Source of the DNA: Chitinophagaceae bacterium | Lineage (GTDB): Bacteria; Bacteroidota; Bacteroidia; Chitinophagales; Chitinophagaceae | DNA length: 64,000 bases | Assembly: GCA_022843585.1 (NCBI GenBank) | Contig: JALHNJ010000007.1 | Location: 1-64,000 of the forward strand | Reading direction: 5' to 3' | In this document: positions 10,080 through 62,272 of the stretch, one piece after another | Position numbering within the stretch: position 1 is the stretch's first letter | Layout of the letters: each line of letters starts with the position of its first letter | Notes under the pieces: generated by a model | Databases searched by the model: none | Seen by the model: the letters and a program-made list of their open reading frames with translations, nothing else | What the model was told of the DNA's origin: nothing | Position numbers and translations under genes: made by a program

Positions 10080-10142
10080 TTAAAGATAAAAAGTACTGAA
10101 ATTTTTCAACTTACATACTACTCCTTTTGTAGTACTTGGTTT

Positions 10143-10790
10143 TTAAACCCTCTGACCAAACAAAAGACTACCAATTCGCACCATATTGCTCTTTTCCACC
10201 ACCGCAATTTTATAATCACTGCTCATGCCCATTGAAAGAATCCTCAACTTGGGGAATTGATCGAAAAGTGCTTTTAGTTTTTGAAACTCTTCTTTTACTA
10301 TTTCCATATTTTCTGTAAAACTTGCCATTCCCATTAAACCGGCAATTTGAATGTTTGTAAGTGGCGAATCATTCAATTGGCTCATTACCTGATTAAGTTC
10401 AGCTTCATCGAAACCAAACTTCGTTTCCTCCTGTGCGATATGTACTTGTAGCAGGCAATCAATAACTCTCTCACTTTTAGCCGCCTGTTTATTTATTTCC
10501 TTCAGGAGTTTTAGACTATCTACTCCATGTATCAGTTGCACAAATGGAGCTATTAACTTTACTTTATTAGTTTGGAGGTGACCAATAAAATGCCAGCGAA
10601 TGTCTTTAGGAAGCTTTTCGGCCTTTTCTACCAATTCCTGTACATAATTTTCACCAAAATCCCGTTGGCCCAGAAGATATAGCTCCAGAATATCTTCAAC
10701 CGGTTTGGTTTTAGATACTGCAACCAACTGCACATGCTTTTCATCGAGATAGTTCTTGATGTTATTGTATGCTGAAATATTTACCGCCAT
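10143..10790 (-). CDS. yggS: YggS/PROSC-family PLP homeostasis protein
   Basis: 215 residues of the alanine-racemase-fold YggS family, which binds pyridoxal phosphate and takes part in vitamin B6 and amino-acid homeostasis without a clear catalytic reaction. The PLP lysine is K27 in VAVSKTKP. Family motifs DFGENYVQEL, RWHFIGHLQTNK and LRILSMGMSSDYKIAV (phosphate-binding region) are all present. Length is typical, and the ATG at 10790 fits. It stands alone between unrelated genes. Confidence 0.95.
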   Translation of the reverse strand: MAVNISAYNNIKNYLDEKHVQLVAVSKTKPVEDILELYLLGQRDFGENYVQELVEKAEKLPKDIRWHFIGHLQTNKVKLIAPFVQLIHGVDSLKLLKEINKQAAKSERVIDCLLQVHIAQEETKFGFDEAELNQVMSQLNDSPLTNIQIAGLMGMASFTENMEIVKEEFQKLKALFDQFPKLRILSMGMSSDYKIAVVEKSNMVRIGSLLFGQRV

Positions 10791-10883
10791 GCTAATTTTT
10801 AAAATACCCCCGTAAAGGTATAACCGGAAAAACGGTTTTCGTTAATTTTATTGATCAAATACACTAACCTCTTATTTTTTAGT

Positions 10884-11528
10884 ATGAATTTTAAAAGCAT
10901 CAGTCTTACTATTATCATCATATTTTCATGTGCTCAAAAAAGTAATACACAAACGTATAATGGCAAAATAGTGATCTTTTTTAAAGACACTATCGAAGGA
11001 AAAATAACTGTAGACCTAACCGGCGAAAACAAAGGATTGGTATATATTGAAACTTCAACTGTAACAAAATCAAAAAAGAAAGGAGAAAAATCAACTGCTT
11101 CGGTTACGGAAAAAAACGGTTATAATCCCGCCATAATCAGTGCCCTGTTTATTGAAGGGAAAACATATAAGTTTAAAGACCTTCGGGTGGATTATAAAGA
11201 TGAAAATAATCTTGAAAATTGCTGCGTAGAAAGAATTGCAGGAAACGACAGCATTGCTATTTATCAATGGAATAATAAAGACGGACGTATATCATATTAC
11301 ACAACAACACCCAGATTTAACGAATATGCTGAAAGCATAGAACATCCAAAGTATGATGAAGGAGGATTCAAATCATTTATGGCAATTAAACTAAGTCGTT
11401 GCAAAAGTCTTGGCGATAAAATCTATGAGATGGCAGATGGCTATTTTTATGAAAATAAAACAGCTTCTCTGGAGGAGAAGCTGCAAGTTTGGAAAAATAT
11501 TATACGGGACTATATAGCCTGTTGGTAA
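10884..11528 (+). CDS. Exported hypothetical protein
   Basis: 214 residues from ATG 10884; an upstream TTG at 10851 would only add sequence ahead of the signal peptide. N-terminal export signal MNFKSISLTIIIIFSCAQ; the Cys could be a lipobox cysteine. The mature part is hydrophilic (GKIVIFFKDTIEGKITVDLTGENKG, SALFIEGKTYKFKDLRVDY). I do not recognise the family. Its 3' end contains a hairpin that appears to be the terminator of the convergent acyl-CoA dehydrogenase gene; only 1 nt separates the two stops. Confidence 0.7.
   Translation: MNFKSISLTIIIIFSCAQKSNTQTYNGKIVIFFKDTIEGKITVDLTGENKGLVYIETSTVTKSKKKGEKSTASVTEKNGYNPAIISALFIEGKTYKFKDLRVDYKDENNLENCCVERIAGNDSIAIYQWNNKDGRISYYTTTPRFNEYAESIEHPKYDEGGFKSFMAIKLSRCKSLGDKIYEMADGYFYENKTASLEEKLQVWKNIIRDYIACW
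11451..11483 (-). terminator. Terminator of the acyl-CoA dehydrogenase gene, inside the neighbouring ORF
   Basis: A 9-bp perfect stem (CAGCTTCTC against GAGAAGCTG, 11461-11483) has a 5-nt loop. Read on the minus strand it is followed by TTTTATTTT, the expected U-run. It lies within the last codons of the convergent gene. Confidence 0.6.
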
Positions 11529-41621: not shown

Positions 41622-41702
41622 TGATAAAACTAATAAAATGTAGTATTTTACTAATACATTTTATAAACCAACTTATTGTCCTTATCATATCAACCCTTGT
41701 TT

Positions 41703-43895
41703 ATGATAATACTTACCCGCATTACAACACTTTTAATACTGGTTTCAATTTCTTTAAATGCTATAGCACAAACACCACTAAAGGTTAGAGATGCCAGCAT
41801 TAAAGGGTCGCAAACATTTGCAATTGTACTTGGCGTATCAAAGTATAAATATGTAAGGCCCTTAGCCTACGCAGATAAAGACGCAATTCTTTTCAAAGAT
41901 TATTTAAAGTCGCCCGGCGGTGGTAGCGTTAAAGATGAAAACATTTTTATGCTTTTAAACGATAAAGCTTCCAATGCCAATTTCTGGGGGAAAGGTTTTC
42001 AATGGCTGAAAGCAAAAAATCTCCAACGTGGCGATAAACTTTTTATATATCTCGCCGGACATGGTGATGCAATTGACGAAGACCAATTCTTTTTCCTGGG
42101 CTATGATTGTAATCCTGCCGGTGATAAAAATAATTACCTGGTATCAGGTGCCATTCAATTATTCAACCTGAAGAAAAAAATTGCCAATGAAACTACTAAA
42201 GGAGTAGAAGTATTTTTCATTATGGATGCCTGCCGTTCTAATGAATTACCCGGAGGCGCAAGTGGTCAAAATTTTTTAAACTCTGCTATTTCTGAAAAGA
42301 AAGCCGGCGAAATAATTATGCTGGCAACAGCGGCCGGGCAAGAATCATTGGAAGATGCTTCTATTGGAACTGGACAAGGTTTGTTTACTTATTATTTAGT
42401 AGATGGATTAAATGGTGTTGCGGACTCTGATAGAAATCCAGATGGGAAAATATCATTTGCAGAAATACAAAATCATGTAAATAAAAATGTCCCCTCCATT
42501 GCGCAGCAACGTTTTCGCAGAAAGCAAGACCCCTATTTCTGTTGCACTGAGAATAGCGATAAAATTATCAGTAATGTGGATACTGCTTATCTTAGAAAAT
42601 GGCTGCAAAAGAAAAAACAGGAAACAAGACGTGGTGGTGGTAATTCATTCACCGGATTTACAGATAAGCAATTCCGTTTGTTTGAAGCAGATACATTGCT
42701 GACAGAAACCTATGAACGTTTTAACCGGGCCGTAGAAAATAAAAATATAACCGGTAACTCTTCTGCAGAAGAGTTTTTTCAACAACTGAATACAAAGTTT
42801 CCGGGCAATCCTTATACATTGGATGCTAAATCAACTTTAGCAGTTGAATATATAAACGAAGCACAGGCAAGAGTTGATCGCTACCTTATTTGTGGCGATG
42901 ATGCATCGGATAGAATTAAAAGAGAAAATACAGCCGCAGCCGACCATCTTGAAAAAGCCATTGCTATGGTGAGGGAAGATGATGCTGATTTTGCTAACTC
43001 GTTATTAGGAAGAATGTATCTATTAAGAGCTGGTGGTAACAATGTAGATGTTCAAACTTCTTTGCGCAGTGCTTACGGGGCTTTGGCGATAGACCCCAAC
43101 GGTGCTTATATTCAACATAAGCTGGCACAACTGCATCTTTCCAATAAAAACAATGACAGTGCTTTATACTATGCAAACAAAGCAGTTAAAACTGCTCCTA
43201 ACTGGGCTTGTGCATTAACAACATTAGCACTGGTTAGAAATGCTGCCAACCAGCCCAATGAAAATAATAATAAACCACAAAGCAAAAAGCCTGTGAGAAA
43301 AAGTAGCTTCGGCGGTGTGACCGGAGCAGGCCTTAGCCAGTTAACACCCACTTTTTCGGCTGATGGTCAATCAACCATTACGGGTGTTAATCCGAGAGAT
43401 ATTTTTAAAGCTGATCTCGGTATAATTTATCAAATAGGCCTAAGCTCAAACATATCAATTCGTCCGTCAACAGTTGTTTCAATGGAAGGCGGTGAGCTGA
43501 TCTATGAAAGAAGACCTCCTACCGGTGGGCAAGTTTTCAGAGATACAGTATCGCTGAAAAACACATCCGTAACAGTTTCACTTCCGGTGATAATACATTT
43601 ATCCAGCAAGAAGATTGCACCTTATATTTCTTTGGGACCATCCTTTACTTATATGATCAGCCAGGAGGAAGAAACATCAACAATAGTTCCTGTTAAAAAA
43701 TCAGTGCTACTGGGAGATGCGGCTTTTGGTGTTGATATCGGTCTTGGCAAGAGCAGATTGATGATCTCTCCTGAATTAAGGTACACACAAGGGTTTAATA
43801 ATTTAAAAGGAGATGGCAACGGAGAATTCAGTCGTACCATTTCATCGTTGAAGAAAAGAGGAATTACGTTTAGTATTTATTTGAGAGGAAGGTAA
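41703..43895 (+). CDS. Exported caspase-family (C14) protein with TPR-like region and C-terminal beta-barrel
   Basis: 730 residues from ATG 41703 (a TTG at 41676 is rejected because the signal peptide MIILTRITTLLILVSISLNAIAQ starts at the ATG). The caspase/metacaspase domain spans about 35-260, with catalytic His120 in FIYLAGHGD and Cys177 in FIMDACRS. A middle region (about 330-535) has TPR-like helical pairs (AADHLEKAIAMVREDDADFANSLLGRMYLL, AYIQHKLAQLHLSNKNNDSALYYANKAV). After a basic linker, the last 180 or so residues look like a PorT-type outer-membrane beta-barrel (DLGIIYQIGLSSNISIRPSTVVSME, YISLGPSFTYMI, SPELRYTQGFNNL). A caspase tethered to an outer-membrane barrel is unusual. A terminator follows. 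Confidence 0.88.
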   Translation: MIILTRITTLLILVSISLNAIAQTPLKVRDASIKGSQTFAIVLGVSKYKYVRPLAYADKDAILFKDYLKSPGGGSVKDENIFMLLNDKASNANFWGKGFQWLKAKNLQRGDKLFIYLAGHGDAIDEDQFFFLGYDCNPAGDKNNYLVSGAIQLFNLKKKIANETTKGVEVFFIMDACRSNELPGGASGQNFLNSAISEKKAGEIIMLATAAGQESLEDASIGTGQGLFTYYLVDGLNGVADSDRNPDGKISFAEIQNHVNKNVPSIAQQRFRRKQDPYFCCTENSDKIISNVDTAYLRKWLQKKKQETRRGGGNSFTGFTDKQFRLFEADTLLTETYERFNRAVENKNITGNSSAEEFFQQLNTKFPGNPYTLDAKSTLAVEYINEAQARVDRYLICGDDASDRIKRENTAAADHLEKAIAMVREDDADFANSLLGRMYLLRAGGNNVDVQTSLRSAYGALAIDPNGAYIQHKLAQLHLSNKNNDSALYYANKAVKTAPNWACALTTLALVRNAANQPNENNNKPQSKKPVRKSSFGGVTGAGLSQLTPTFSADGQSTITGVNPRDIFKADLGIIYQIGLSSNISIRPSTVVSMEGGELIYERRPPTGGQVFRDTVSLKNTSVTVSLPVIIHLSSKKIAPYISLGPSFTYMISQEEETSTIVPVKKSVLLGDAAFGVDIGLGKSRLMISPELRYTQGFNNLKGDGNGEFSRTISSLKKRGITFSIYLRGR

Positions 43896-51856: not shown

Positions 51857-53266
51857 ATGACACTCAGAAAGCTATTTCCGATTCTATTTTTATTTGTTGT
51901 GGTGAATGCAACGGCGCAGCCAATAAAAACACAAACAACAGCACAGTTGCTAAAAACGGCCAGCACTCTTTTACAAGCCCAGCAATTGGAAGCAGCAGAA
52001 GAATACTATAACACTGCCCTTACGAAAGCTATTGCAACAAAGAATCCTTATCACCAGGCACAGGCATATGAAGGCTTAGGAAATATTTATAATAAAACAA
52101 ACCAGCAAACACAGGCTATAGCAGCATACCAGAAAGCAGTGAAGTTTTACAAATCACTCAACATGACGGTGATCGCTGATGTGGTGAATAATCAATTACG
52201 GGGCTTGCTTGGCTTTGGAGATCTCTATGCCGGTGTTGAAATTGGTGCTAAGGGAATTAAACTCAGCATCATTGAAGTTAAGATCGATAAGAACGGTGAA
52301 AATGATTATACGTTAAAACTGGATAGTGCCATCAATACAGATGCCGCAGCTTTATCTTACCAAAGTGAAAAAGAAACCTTTGATGCCGTAACTATTTTTT
52401 ACAATATCATCCGGGAGAAATATGAAATTCCGGCTTCCAAAATTCATATCGTTATCAGCAGTGGATTAAAACAAGAACTGGATAAATACAATAAGGTAGA
52501 ATATTTTGCGAATGTGGTGCGACCCAAAGACCTCGACCCGAAAATAAAAATCAATTATATAACCGTTGAACAAGAAGCAGAATTAAGCTTTAAAGGAATT
52601 GTTCCTTCAGTCAACCGTCTGTCGGCCAACCAGCTCGATGTTGGAAGTGGAAATACCAAGGGTGGATATATTAACAGCAGGCGGAGTTTTATTCCAGTCA
52701 CTTTTCCATTGGGCACCAAATCTTTTCAACGTTTGCTGGAAGAAAAAATGCCGGGCAATGCAAAAATTGATGACTACCTGAAGGCTGCGGAAAAAGTTAT
52801 GATTGATAGTCTAGGCAGAATGATCGTTTACCAGTTCAGGGACAAACCAGATTTTAAATCAAGAGATATTATTTATGTATCCGGCGGTGTGGTATGGGCC
52901 ATTGCATCGTTAATGCACCCGGAACTGATAAAGCAAAACCATGTAGAACTGAACCAGGAGGATATTGCCAATTTTCGTAAACTCGTTTATAGTGATTATG
53001 ATAATCTCATTAATCCTGATCTAAGTAATCGCCTGAATGAGGATGATGCAAGAGCATCACTGGAAAATATAAAACGGGTGGTAAAAACCTACGATCAAAA
53101 AGCATTGCTATCTGGTACTATCTGGTTAGATGAAGTAATTAAGCATGTCAACTCAATGAATGCTTCCAAGAAGCTTATTTTTCCAAGATATGCTTATGTA
53201 GGTTGGATAAGCGGATACATCATGGATAAGATCAGTAAGCAGTACACGGGACTAGCCAGTCGCTAA
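51857..53266 (+). CDS. Exported TPR protein fused to a Ppx/GppA-like (ASKHA) domain
   Basis: 469 residues from ATG 51857 (GTG 51836 rejected; the signal peptide MTLRKLFPILFLFVVVNATAQ starts at the ATG). TPR-like helices occupy about 28-105 (EAAEEYYNTALTKAI, YEGLGNIYNKTNQQTQAIAAYQKAV). A Ppx/GppA-type domain follows: phosphate-1-like GVEIGAKGIKLSIIEV (126-141), the catalytic-Glu region VEQEAELSFKGIV (about 237-249), phosphate-2-like LDVGSGNTKGGYI (260-272) and YVSGGVVWAI (340-349). This is the order seen in exopolyphosphatase and guanosine-pentaphosphatase. Those enzymes are cytoplasmic, so an exported version is unexpected. ppk lies 9 kb downstream. Confidence 0.8.
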   Translation: MTLRKLFPILFLFVVVNATAQPIKTQTTAQLLKTASTLLQAQQLEAAEEYYNTALTKAIATKNPYHQAQAYEGLGNIYNKTNQQTQAIAAYQKAVKFYKSLNMTVIADVVNNQLRGLLGFGDLYAGVEIGAKGIKLSIIEVKIDKNGENDYTLKLDSAINTDAAALSYQSEKETFDAVTIFYNIIREKYEIPASKIHIVISSGLKQELDKYNKVEYFANVVRPKDLDPKIKINYITVEQEAELSFKGIVPSVNRLSANQLDVGSGNTKGGYINSRRSFIPVTFPLGTKSFQRLLEEKMPGNAKIDDYLKAAEKVMIDSLGRMIVYQFRDKPDFKSRDIIYVSGGVVWAIASLMHPELIKQNHVELNQEDIANFRKLVYSDYDNLINPDLSNRLNEDDARASLENIKRVVKTYDQKALLSGTIWLDEVIKHVNSMNASKKLIFPRYAYVGWISGYIMDKISKQYTGLASR

Positions 53267-56646: not shown

Positions 56647-59600
56647 ATGAGACTATTTTCTACCCGGCTAACAAAATTATTGTTCCTTATTCTTTTACCT
56701 GGTTTTCTTTTTGCTCAGGTAAAAGATTATTCACTTCAACTTACTTCTGGAAAATATTTACCGGAAGAAAACAGAAATACTGTTAGTAAGCAATCTGATG
56801 TTTTTCAGCAAAGTCTTTTTAGTGGGAAGCATTATGTAACTATTCAATTTTATGCAACCCCGGACCAGGCTACCAGGAGCAGGTTAAGCTCGGCGGGTAT
56901 TGAATTGATAGACTACATACCCAACTATGCTTATACAGCAATAGTAAAAGAGAATTTTGATCTTGCGGCTATACAAGGACTACCCATAAGAAGCCTTCTG
57001 CAGTTTTCTACCGAACAAAAAATGCCGGCATCTTTTTTTAAAGGTATAGTACCTGCACATGCAATAAAACAAGCTGGTTATGCTGATGTGGTGGTTACAA
57101 CGTATGAAAAAATTAGTGCGGATAAAATTGCTGCAGCATTAAATGCGGTTGGAGCAGCTATTATCGCAGACAATCAAATTTTTAAAAATTATGATATCCG
57201 GGTTCCGATTGCAAACGTAAATGCATTGGCAGCTTTACCCTTTATTCAATGGACAGAGCCTATTGACCCGCCGAATGTGTTAGAAAATGCCCCGGGCAGA
57301 TCACTTCACCGGGTTAATATTTTAAATGATGGTGTTAGAAATTTAAAAGGCGATGGAATTAATATTGGCATTTGGGATGGTGGCCAGGTCAATCTTAATC
57401 ATCTTGACTTTTCACCTGCAGGCAGAGTTACAATAGTAAGAGCAGGCGGAGTATCCGATCATGCGACGCATGTGGCAGGTACTATTACGGGAAAAGGAAT
57501 TGTAAATCCTGTAGCCCGTGGTATGGCGCCAAATGCAACATTATTCTCCTGGGATTTTAATACAAACATTCAAACCGAAATGGCAACCGAAGTGCCTAAT
57601 CGTAATCTTTTAGTAAGCAGCCACTCTTATGGTTCCTCGGGAACACCAAGCTGTTCGTTGAATGATCCTTTAGGAGTTTATAGCACTACTTCAAGAAATA
57701 CAGACGTAAATCTAAATAACAACACAACACATCTGCATGTTCATTCTGCCGGTAATTCAGGCGGTGTATGTGCAGGTGGATTTATGACAATAACCGGAAG
57801 TGGAAAATCAGCTAAGAACAACCTCGTGGTTTCAAATGTTACCACAACAGAAGCAATTTCCGGCTCCAGCAGCCGCGGCCCGGTACAAGATGGCAGAATA
57901 AAACCAGAAATAAGTGCAATGGGAACCAACGTTTTTTCTACCTGGATTCCTAATAGCACTTATGCTACTATTTCAGGAACATCAATGTCTACACCGGGTG
58001 TATCCGGAACTTCAGCTTTATTGTACCAGCGATATAAACAATTAAACGGAAATGCAAACCCTATATCATCGCTTATTAAAAATGTTATTTGTAACGGAGC
58101 TTTAGATATAGGTAATGCCGGACCTGACTATACTTTCGGTTTTGGTCGTATTGATGCCTTATCAGCTGTAGAAATTCTGGAAGAGAACCGCTATTCCGTA
58201 AACACCATTACTAATGGTGCTACTAACTTTATTGATGTTACTGTACCGGCGGGTACAGTGCTATTGAAAGCTATGTTAACATGGAATGATCCGGCGGGTG
58301 CAGCAAATGCAAACCCGGCTTTGGTAAATGATCTTGACCTAACTGTTGTTAACGGAGCTACTACAACCCTCCCTTGGATAATGGACAAAAGTAACCCTGC
58401 AGCACTTGCTACCAGAGGTGTAGACAATTACAGTAATATAGAACAGGTTACTATTACTAATCCTGCTGCCGGCACTTACAGATTAAATGTAAATGGTACC
58501 AACGTAACAACTGGGCCTAACCAGCAATATGCTCTAACATGGATTATAGAACAACAGCACATCGAGGTACTTTTTCCCAATGGCGGTGAGAACTTTATTC
58601 CAGGTACTGCAACCGGCTCGAACATTCAATACATAACATGGAATAATGCAGGAATTACAGGCACACAAACAGTTGAATACTCTACTGATAATGGAGCCAA
58701 CTGGACTACTATTGGAAGTGTTGCTGCTAATGTTACAAGATTAGCCTGGAATCCTATTCCTTCAGTAAGCACTGCTACTGCACTAGTCAGAGTAATCAGT
58801 GGTGCTGTATCTGATGTAAGCGATGCTAACTTTAGTATCATGGGACAACCGGTTTTACAATTTGTAAGTGCTGCAGCATGTCTTCCAGGCGAAATCAGTT
58901 ACACCTGGCCTGCAGTAACTGGTGCCACACATTATGATATATACAGACTTGACCAGGCTACCGGAGATTTTGTAATGATGGCTTCTAATATAATAGGCAC
59001 CGCACATACAATTACAGGCCTTACTCCCGGAGCAACAATATGGGCTGCGCTGGTTGCAAAAAATAATACCACTGGTGCTCAAAGCCCACGATCAAATGCA
59101 GTTAGTGGAACGGTTTCAACTGGTGGCGGGGGTCTTGCTCCTATTGGAAATGTTTCCGGCCAGGCAAGTGTTTGTGGCAATATTCAAGTTCAATATTCTG
59201 TTCCAACTGTTACAGGTGCTACATTATATACCTGGACTTCTCCTCCGAATACAACTATCGCCAGCGGACAAGGAACTAATACAATTTTGGTAAACTTTTT
59301 TGCTGGTAGTAGCAGTGGTAACGTTACAGTATTTGCCAGCGCAGGTTCCTGCCAAACAAGTACATCTACTTTCCCTGTCACGTTCAGCAGCGAAGTGCTA
59401 CCCCCGGCTAGCGGAGGAGATCAAACTAGTAATATTTGCCCTCCAACCCCCATACCAACATTAACTGCAACAGCAACCGTACCTGCCGGACATACTTTAA
59501 CTTGGTTTACAGCCGCAACAGGTGGTTCTATAGTAACAAGTCCAACTTTAAGCACCCCGGGTACAGTCACCTATTATGCTTCTAGTTCTAATAATGCAAG

Positions 59601-61068
59601 TGGTTGTATCAGTCCTTCAAGAACACCGGTTACATTAACTATAAATGCAGTTTCAGGAGCAGCTATAACTGCCGGAGGGCCTCTTACATTCTGCCAGGGT
59701 GGTAGTGTTGTATTAACTGCTACTGCAGGTACCTCTTATATATGGAGAAATGGGGCAACACAAGTTGCCACTACCCAGGCTTATACAGCCACTGCTTCTG
59801 GTTCCTATACAGTAGAAGTAACTACAGGCTCTTGTGTTAATACTTCAGCTGCAACAAATGTTACTGTAAATCCAACGCCAACTGCAGCCATTACTGCTGG
59901 TGGCCCAACTACCTTCTGCCAGGGGTTAAATGTAGTGCTTACTGCATCGGCAGGTTCATCCTGGTTATGGAGCAATGGGGAAACAACACAGTCCATCACT
60001 GTAACTACTTCCGGCAACTATTCAGTAATTGTTACCAATGCATCAAATTGCAGTACTACATCTGCTGTAACGGCTGTTACTGTTAATCCTAATCCGGCTG
60101 CCGTAATTACTGCAACCGGAGGTATAACAACAGTTTGTCAGGGTGGAACTGTTACACTACAGGCCAATGCAGGCAACTCCTATTTGTGGAGCAATGGAGC
60201 CACTACACAATCAATTACACTTACCGGACCAATTGGTACTACAAACTATTCAGTAGATGTAACACAAGCTGGCGGTTGTGTATCATCATCCTCAGCTACA
60301 GCGGTTACCATAAATCCATTACCAACAGCTACAATTACTGCTGCAGGTCCATTAGCATTTTGTAATGGCAATAATGTTGTTTTAAATGCTCCTGCTGGCG
60401 GCACATGGATATGGAGAAATGGAGCAACACAAGTTGCTACTACACAATCATACACCGCTACTACTACCGGTGCTTATACAGTACAGGTAACAACAGCAGC
60501 TGGTTGTTCTAATACTTCGGGTATTACCAATGTTACAGTAAGCCCTAACCCGGTTGCAACGCTGGCAGCAGCGCCATATACTAAATTGTTCCCTGGTTTA
60601 AAAACAAACCTTACTGCTACTGTTAATCCAACCGGAACGTATACTTATACATGGCTACGAAACGGTAATGCTGTACCGGGTGCAACAACAGCTTCTATTC
60701 CAAATATTGATTTGAATGGCCTTGGCACTTATACCGTAACAGTAACAAATACTACTGGCTTACCATGTTCTAACACATCTAACGCCGTAGTAATTGCCGA
60801 CTCCATCAGTGCTAAGTTGTTTGTATATCCAAATCCATCTAAAGGAGCATTCCAGGTTCAATTCTATACCACTAACACATCTGCACATACCGTTTCCATT
60901 TTTGATGCTAAGGGAAGTGTAGTGTATAGAAAAGAATATAACCTGAGCATCCCTTACCAGCAAATGGATGTAGATATAAGAAGACATGGTGCTGGTGTGT
61001 ACCAGGTGGTATTACACGACAAAACAGGAAAACGATTGGCGTACAAACAAATAGTAGTCGCTCAATAA
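56647..61068 (+). CDS. T9SS-secreted S8 serine protease with Ig-like repeats
   Basis: 1473 residues. Signal peptide 1-24 (ending LFAQ). A propeptide-like region is followed by a subtilisin domain (about 225-515) with D244 (GIWDGG), H272 ([10 protein letters not shown]), oxyanion N370 (HSAGNSG) and S446 (SGTSMSTP). A P-domain-like jelly roll follows (about 515-640), then an FnIII-like module (about 745-820). Then come about six Ig/PKD-like modules rich in Thr/Ser, several opening with AxITAGGPxxFCQG. A type A T9SS sorting domain ([10 protein letters not shown]...[24 protein letters not shown], about 1390-1473) ends the protein. It is probably secreted or surface-attached. Followed by a strong terminator. 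Confidence 0.95.
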
Positions 61069-61156: not shown

Positions 61157-62272
61157 ATGAAATTGCAACCCTTACAAGTTTATAAATTCAAGCAAGTACT
61201 GCGCATTACTTTAATGTGGGTATTTATTGGAGTGGTACTGGAATTACATAATGCGATCAACTACAATCCTGAAACAGGGAATTATTTTTTTTATCCGCAT
61301 TTTGGCGAAACAATGCTTGAACACTTATTAATTACTGCTGTAGGACCTTTGATGGGCGGAATACTATTTGGATCTCTTATCATTTTTTATTTGCGGGAGA
61401 AATTAAAAACCAGTAGCTATAGTAAGAAGCTGTTAACCCATTCAGTTATTTATATTGTTGCAGTATTTATTTGCGTAGCAACGGTTGGTTTCATAGCCGC
61501 CTTAAATGATAACACAACAAATCAGTTTATTGAAAAACTATATGCTGCAATCATTAATTTACGGGTAATGCGATTAATGTTTGATTGGTATTTTATCGTA
61601 ATCATTACTATTTTTCTTTTAGATGTAAGTGAAAAATATGGACAGGGTATACTGCGAAAAACTTTGCTGGGAAAATACCATACTGCCCGAAAAGAAGTAA
61701 GAGTATTTATGTTTCTTGATTTAAAATCTTCCACCACTATTGCAGAAAGAATTGGGGAAGATGCTTATTTTAATATGTTAAAACTTTTTTACAGTCTTGC
61801 TAATGAAGCAATAGTTAACAGCAAAGGAGAAATATACCAATATGTAGGTGATGAAGTAATAGTATCATGGACTGAGGCAGATGCAATAAGCGAAGCCAAT
61901 GGCCTGAATTGTTTTTATAAAATAAAAGAAGCCGTTACAACTGCAAGTGATGAGTTCAATAAGCGATATGGCGTAACGCCTGATTTTAAAGCTGCTATAC
62001 ATGCTGGCCGGGTAGCCACCGGCGAAATTGGATTAGTGAAAAAAGATATTGTGTACTCCGGCGATGTATTAAATGCTACAGCTCGTATGGTTGCCTTGTG
62101 TAATCATTACAAAGCTGATTTGCTGATTTCAGATATGCTATTTGAAAAACTTAAAACAAATAGTAACTATCAGTTTCAGTATGTAGATAGCCCGGATTTG
62201 CGGGGCAAGCAGGCTAAACTCGGATTATATAGTGTAACAAAAAAAATCACCCCTTCACATAATCATAAATAG
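61157..62272 (+). CDS. Membrane-bound class III adenylate/guanylate cyclase
   Basis: 371 residues from ATG 61157 (TTG 61145 rejected). Four membrane helices at about 15-32, 58-79, 96-116 and 141-157. A class III cyclase domain spans about 183-365: metal Asp188 in FMFLDLKSSTTIAERIGE, Asp232 in YQYVGDEVIVSW, FKAAIHAGRVATGEIG, and DVLNATARMVALC with the transition-state Asn/Arg. It would make cAMP or cGMP at the membrane; I could not assign nucleotide specificity. Its 3' end overlaps the end of the convergent ppk gene by 26 nt. Confidence 0.9.
   Translation: MKLQPLQVYKFKQVLRITLMWVFIGVVLELHNAINYNPETGNYFFYPHFGETMLEHLLITAVGPLMGGILFGSLIIFYLREKLKTSSYSKKLLTHSVIYIVAVFICVATVGFIAALNDNTTNQFIEKLYAAIINLRVMRLMFDWYFIVIITIFLLDVSEKYGQGILRKTLLGKYHTARKEVRVFMFLDLKSSTTIAERIGEDAYFNMLKLFYSLANEAIVNSKGEIYQYVGDEVIVSWTEADAISEANGLNCFYKIKEAVTTASDEFNKRYGVTPDFKAAIHAGRVATGEIGLVKKDIVYSGDVLNATARMVALCNHYKADLLISDMLFEKLKTNSNYQFQYVDSPDLRGKQAKLGLYSVTKKITPSHNHK

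Follow-up and report, generated by a model that had tools for sequence, protein, structure and literature searches.

We have found, in the genome of a Chitinophagaceae bacterium, a protein whose sequence best fits a variant of the Ppx/GppA superfamily that is extracytoplasmic, carries TPRs and has the charge of one catalytic position reversed. Filing it among the exopolyphosphatases would be a mistake, because one of the catalytic acids is lost, the predicted location is not that of such an enzyme and the Pfam score stays below the curated cut-off. The gene lies in the window, i.e., the whole stretch of 64,000 nucleotides analyzed here, and its features are the following (residue roles at the three catalytic positions come from PMC11234463).

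51857-53266, plus strand: open reading frame, 469 amino acids plus stop
51857-51919, plus strand: type I signal peptide without lipobox, residues 1-21, ending in ATAQ (by eye; the N-terminus is hydrophobic in relatives as well)
51938-52210, plus strand: TPR region, residues 28-118 (Pfam TPR_12 over cut-off; AF2 helices)
52220-53188, plus strand: ASKHA (Ppx/GppA-like) domain, residues 122-444 (AF2, Foldseek, hhalign)
52232-52267, plus strand: phosphate-1 loop GVEIGAKGIKLS, residues 126-137, with E128, K132 and K135 inside (alignments)
52574-52576, plus strand: E240, equivalent of DrPPX E114 (hhalign and row counts)
52637-52639, plus strand: D261, equivalent of DrPPX D136 (hhalign and row counts)
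52658-52660, plus strand: K268, at the position of DrPPX E143 (hhalign and row counts)
52877-52900, plus strand: GG (adenosine-type) motif VSGGVVWA, residues 341-348 (alignments)

The N-terminus, MTLRKLFPILFLFVVVNATAQ, was judged by eye to be a signal peptide lacking a lipobox, and export of the protein is predicted. A crude test for a hydrophobic and basic N-terminus was passed by 47 of the 49 extracytoplasmic rows in our alignment (two fail) and by none of the nine canonical ones, so that a mis-called start, a concern already raised by the sequence-only reading, looks very unlikely. Behind the signal peptide, TPR_12 scored 37.8 bits against a curated cut-off of 30.1 (E 2.3e-9, residues 30-100) and TPR_8 27.1 against 25.7; the AF2 model places helices there at residues 28-40, 44-60, 64-80, 84-100 and 104-118. 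The Ppx-GppA family (PF02541) reached 21.6 bits (E 1.7e-4, residues 152-314), which misses the curated cut-off of 27, and was matched at E 0.01 by three of the 27 relatives scanned. Two relatives pass the cut-off (L081, 57.5 bits; L090, 29.3) and two others fall short of it (L092, 22.2; L076, 18.9), while even at E 0.1 this family gave no match for L078 or for L002, the TPR-less paralogue of the same genome described below. The exported TPR and Ppx/GppA-like fusion proposed before is thus borne out, for export by sequence, and the four Ppx/GppA motifs quoted in its support are present in the order given.

The AF2 model, built on a shallow alignment of 27 rows, had a pLDDT of 86.5 and a pTM of 0.69, with helices over residues 28-118, the strands and helices of an ASKHA domain over 122-443 and a final helix at 446-468. 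Its best PDB match by Foldseek was a putative exopolyphosphatase (1.7e-11), A. aeolicus 1t6c reached 2.3e-11 with a target TM of 0.74, and ranks 1 to 24 among the best 50 rows were all Ppx/GppA or exopolyphosphatase-like entries. Structure prediction against PPX/GppA, the check proposed earlier, gave an ASKHA fold with solved Ppx/GppA first, and the match of the model to these structures is above chance. The paralogue, modelled from its own, likewise shallow alignment (pTM 0.80), also had 1t6c as top PDB match (E 3.9e-12). Profile comparison by hhalign of 24 extracytoplasmic members with seven canonical-type Bacteroidota Ppx/GppA gave 98.8% probability (E 7.7e-17) and, with it, the residue correspondence. 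A PDB sequence search with the single protein returned 37 sequences at E up to 1, all through the TPR region; with the 27-row profile H. pylori PPX/GppA came first (E 0.0042), followed by exopolyphosphatases at E 0.22-0.59, and the relative L081 matched A. aeolicus Ppx/GppA directly by sequence at 2.6e-8.

The second group in the fold searches were the GDA1/CD39 NTPDases (e.g., Legionella NTPDase1, 4bra), which are ASKHA phosphohydrolases working outside the cytoplasm and carry Gln in phosphate-2; Q193E stands in the PDB title of one NTPDase row, 4brd. They appeared after Ppx/GppA, from 7.4e-10 for the window protein (Legionella NTPDase1) and from 1.5e-8 for the paralogue. The window protein matched 15 Pfam families at E up to 1, and a set of 27 members matched 18 at E up to 0.01; GDA1_CD39 was in neither list, and we have rejected NTPDase kinship on the grounds of fold rank and this missing Pfam match.

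The change that sets these proteins apart is in the catalytic site. The equivalents of DrPPX D7, E114, D136 and E143 in the window protein are E128, E240, D261 and K268, the DrPPX numbering being matched through motifs rather than by direct alignment of DrPPX. The columns of E240 and D261 are invariant, Glu and Asp respectively, in all 49 extracytoplasmic and all nine canonical rows. The K268 column, in contrast, is Lys in 48 of 49 extracytoplasmic rows (L079 has Leu) and in none of the nine canonical ones, where it is Glu in eight and Asp in one. At column 128, the Mg-ligand position, we found Glu in 40, Asp in seven, Gln in one and Ser in one of the 49, against Asp in 9/9 canonical rows; E128 at the DrPPX D7 position is a conservative change. 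The K132 column holds Lys or Arg in 35/49 rows versus Asn in 9/9, a second lysine of the loop in the window protein is K135, and at K205, which corresponds to DrPPX R86, a basic residue (K or R) stands in just 29/49. These counts leave out duplicates of one gene under two locus ids, the fragment L020, L061, L039, the canonical L115, close copies of kept rows (L024, L026, L027, L028, L032), f5-family rows (L049, L051, L052, L053), G477:C3 (in L096), G828:C22, the later found Azospirillum P0002 and weak hits without a returned locus. Lysine or histidine can occupy the phosphate loops of other ASKHA families, actin among them. When aligned by sequence, an H. pylori chain named E143A in its PDB title shows Ala where GGGST-E has its Glu. 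In DrPPX, the catalytic water is contacted by E114, D136 and E143, an assignment that comes in part from docking and simulation, and D7 holds Mg2+ (from docking and simulation); Ala at E143 brings kcat down about tenfold, to 3.64 per s against 37.95, and kcat/Km to 0.04 against 2.28 (PMC11234463). The sequence-only reading had based its suspicion of an altered activity on the GAKG of the phosphate-1 loop; that change is real and the suspicion appears right, but it is the lesser change, and the replacement of the phosphate-2 acid by K268 is, at the level of sequence, the more telling one. Compared with Ppx/GppA (PF02541; A. aeolicus 1t6c, H. pylori 6pc0, D. radiodurans 8jgo) the protein shares the ASKHA fold and the order of phosphate-1, catalytic-helix Glu, phosphate-2 and GG motif, with E240 and D261 conserved; it differs in the added TPR, in the missed PF02541 cut-off, in N to K in phosphate-1 and E to K in phosphate-2, and in a signal peptide that predicts export in place of the cytoplasmic location.

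By sequence, the protein is a member of a Ppx/GppA superfamily branch that is extracytoplasmic and occurs in Bacteroidota, with one member found in Alphaproteobacteria. The same genome carries a TPR-less paralogue (G000:C3:263957) with 29% identity over the domain. Among the 117 genomes of the family sample 19 had an extracytoplasmic member, the TPR form being present in six and the TPR-less form in 17 (one of them a fragment). The search for proteins combining signal peptide, TPR and Ppx that had been suggested thus recovers such a group, though TPR is not general in it: it is absent from the paralogue, from short exported proteins of about 360 amino acids (family f5), from lipoproteins and from N-terminally TM-anchored members (forms assigned by eye). 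In the wider samples, where at most the best four candidates per genome were scored, at least 34 of 395 genomes matched at 1e-5 at the phylum level, six of the weak hits examined being canonical Ppx/GppA, and at least 35 of 395 at 1e-8 at the class level, where many weak matches were confined to the TPR region and three of those examined were canonical. Within f5, L083 and L046-L053 have GRRA or GRRT phosphate-1 loops, and the aligned rows show GAQTTKGG or GAANTKGG in phosphate-2, a sub-branch further decayed in which the lysine is kept. The TM-anchored gene lies in a three-gene run that is alike, by eye, in two genomes (L094:6339-9433 and L095:8330-11315), and its two companions in L094 have no Pfam family over cut-off.

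The one relative found outside Bacteroidota, WP_014189769.1 ('hypothetical protein') of an Azospirillum lipoferum 4B plasmid, has a signal peptide and the motif DIGSGNVK; its domain aligns with 99.85% probability, and it carries the same phosphate-2 lysine. On that plasmid the exported Ppx-like gene is located 59 bp downstream of a serine/threonine protein kinase gene (L132:1-2595). Searching plasmids with L081 matched 14 records, one from Acetoanaerobium; two of the 14 were translated, those of A. lipoferum and A. brasilense, the latter being a canonical GGGSTE protein without signal peptide. As to mobile elements otherwise, P0001 had no plasmid match at 1e-5, and a scan of viral contigs with two peptide patterns found no match.

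A tree of 58 rows split extracytoplasmic from canonical members with support 100/100, L110 and L097 standing on long branches. The tree is unrooted and has no outside family, and midpoint rooting puts the canonical rows inside the extracytoplasmic ones, so it does not establish a single origin of the lysine branch. For the two closest relatives, the pairs in which dN/dS was usable (dS being saturated or undefined in more distant ones), the Nei-Gojobori values over the ASKHA domain were 0.032/0.860 (about 0.04, L032) and 0.0145/0.647 (about 0.02, L024). The domain is therefore maintained by purifying selection.

The distance of the TPR-form gene to ppk had been given as 9 kb, and we measured about 9.0 kb, although this ppk is the second copy of the genome:

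62247-63998, minus strand: second ppk (ppk1), 3' end at 62247, running off the window

The other copy is at C3:236588, beside the canonical ppx (C3:238419). As an argument the proximity does not hold. In eight of nine other genomes with the TPR form all ppk hits were on another contig; among the hits listed as TPR form, the gene is separated from the contig ends by some 35 kb or more in seven of these genomes, while in G025 one end is about 9.5 kb away. In the ninth (G359), where both are on a single contig, the nearest ppk was about 298 kb away. We have accordingly rejected ppk linkage as a functional clue. Co-occurrence with ppk, also put forward as a check, was rejected too as uninformative, ppk being present in 19/19 genomes with an exported member and in 91/98 without (p = 0.6). 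The neighbours of the TPR form are proline racemase, aldehyde dehydrogenase, fatty-acid-hydroxylase-type and YjdM/PhnA-domain genes; they are on mixed strands and common to close relatives only, for which reasons we have drawn no function from the neighbourhood. By eye, among the called ORFs, no phosphate-starvation or transport gene was seen beside the TPR form, except for the YjdM/PhnA-domain gene, on the opposite strand in close relatives. Elsewhere in the window, positions 41676-43895 (plus strand) code for a metacaspase-like protein of at most 739 amino acids with an apparent signal peptide (caspase Peptidase_C14, E 8.3e-14), and 56647-61068 (plus strand) for an exported protein of 1473 amino acids that looks, by eye, like a subtilase with several copies of an Ig-like module and a sorting domain at its C-terminus.

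The TPR-less paralogue does have a gene association. In L065 its neighbours on either side are proteins with one N-terminal hydrophobic segment, a coiled coil and an apparently beta-rich C-terminal part (by eye), which probably face the periplasm:

L065:7707-8681 and 10101-11030: paired TM and coiled-coil proteins flanking the paralogue, no Pfam match over cut-off

Nearly all genomes of the sample (114 of 117) have this coiled-coil family. Two of its genes enclose the TPR-less gene, on the same strand, in five genomes (G000, G012, G027, G038, G074), and one lies next to it on the same strand in three (G040, G083, G100), i.e., they adjoin in at least eight of the 17 genomes with this form; in the remaining ones with listed coordinates the coiled-coil genes sit elsewhere. 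Two or more coiled-coil copies were found in 15/17 genomes with the TPR-less form versus 18/100 without it (p 3e-8, uncorrected for descent), some of the 18 being fragmented hits and the partner profile having been built from copies adjacent to the paralogue. In the clustered loci of the TPR form no coiled-coil neighbour was seen.

The analysis establishes the domain order, the predicted fold, the residue conservation, the purifying selection and the gene association of the paralogue; the ligand, the loss of hydrolysis and the sensing are what we infer for the window protein. The explanation that we prefer, and to which we give about an even chance, is that it is a periplasmic binder or sensor of phosphate or polyphosphate with a rewired site, and not an ordinary exopolyphosphatase. 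It would be a soluble periplasmic protein in which a TPR docking module is joined to a Ppx/GppA-fold domain, from a family that may have moved out of the cytoplasm and had its catalytic centre rewired. Of the three acids that contact water in DrPPX, two are retained (E240 and D261) and the third is replaced by K268, with the extra lysines K132 and K135 in the phosphate-1 loop. By homology, K268 could form salt bridges with E240 and D261 or bind phosphate directly, and this contact would occupy the space that Mg2+ and water take in the enzymes. Phosphate, polyphosphate or some other phosphorylated ligand would then sit in the cleft and undergo little or no processive, Mg-dependent hydrolysis. 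Domain closure might be relayed to protein partners, for which this form would use its TPR and the TPR-less paralogue probably the membrane-anchored coiled-coil proteins. Several points stand against the binder. An enzyme that still works, by altered chemistry, would equally keep E240 and D261 throughout; the Ala mutant of DrPPX loses a factor of ten but is not inactive (PMC11234463), and a Lys need not behave like an Ala; the K205 column is basic in just 29/49 rows; the partner evidence belongs to the paralogue and not to the TPR form; and the unrooted tree does not give the lysine branch a single origin.

The first of these points leads to an active periplasmic phosphohydrolase acting on polyphosphate, pyrophosphate or nucleotides, in which the lysine has joined the catalytic site and which scavenges phosphate like the exported NTPDases. 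We consider this less likely than the binder, yet a serious rival. The two acids kept in 49/49 rows, the strong purifying selection on the ASKHA domain and the bacterial, plant and animal NTPDases that rank next after Ppx/GppA in the fold lists, interleaved with them, speak for it, but the acid at K268 is lost in 49/49 (to Lys in 48, to Leu in one), the column of the Mg-binding Asp now reads Glu 40, Asp 7 and other 2, and, YjdM/PhnA-domain gene excepted, no phosphate-starvation or transport gene was seen by eye among the ORFs called beside the TPR form. Ala at the K268 position also cripples DrPPX (PMC11234463). An equally serious rival, and in our estimation just as likely as the hydrolase, is a pure scaffold, whose cleft would no longer bind any phosphate ligand and whose domain would serve as a protein-protein module only. 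The weak Pfam score (21.6 against 27, none for the paralogue, 3/27 relatives at E 0.01), the altered loops, the TPR or coiled-coil partners and the four of seven aligned f5-family rows with further decay in phosphate-1 (GRRA/GRRT) and phosphate-2, the lysine being kept, all agree with it; the cleft motifs, however, rank with the best conserved stretches of the protein, and this speaks for a ligand. As for a cytoplasmic Ppx/GppA with TPR and a mis-called signal peptide, it is scarcely credible given the N-terminal test in 47/49 relatives and 0/9 canonical proteins, the lipobox or TM anchor that takes the place of the signal peptide in some relatives (by eye) and an upstream in-frame GTG that merely adds seven residues to the same signal peptide.

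Beyond the window protein, the periplasmic binder could be extended to a multi-phylum class of extracytoplasmic ASKHA proteins, with Lys replacing the metal and water site, that act as metal-independent periplasmic receptors of polyphosphate or phosphorylated compounds and are wired to the envelope by interchangeable TPR, coiled-coil and lipid or TM-anchor modules. This we offer as a tentative possibility that we would sooner expect to be wrong than right.

There are other Ppx homologues whose activity departs from the family name; those of the Rtg2 and Rv1026 types are not known to be exported. Such a departure is reported for Mycobacterium Rv1026-type proteins, where the predicted catalytic residues of Rv1026 are kept, unlike those of the window protein (PMC3411833), and for Rtg2-type homologues (PMC5417653). 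A haloarchaeal enzyme for exogenous polyphosphate is reported (PMC13318637). In the titles and abstract starts of the open-licence literature we found no Bacteroidota extracytoplasmic polyphosphate receptor or enzyme and no paper on Ppx/GppA with a signal peptide in Bacteroidetes, and the papers on secreted or periplasmic polyphosphatases were not about this family. Labelling such proteins exopolyphosphatases would be an unsafe annotation. The sequences suggest instead a little-known branch that may bind phosphate compounds in place of the usual breakdown, and an extracytoplasmic Ppx/GppA branch with a charge-reversed catalytic residue would be a concrete, testable candidate for dealing with polyphosphate outside the cytoplasm.
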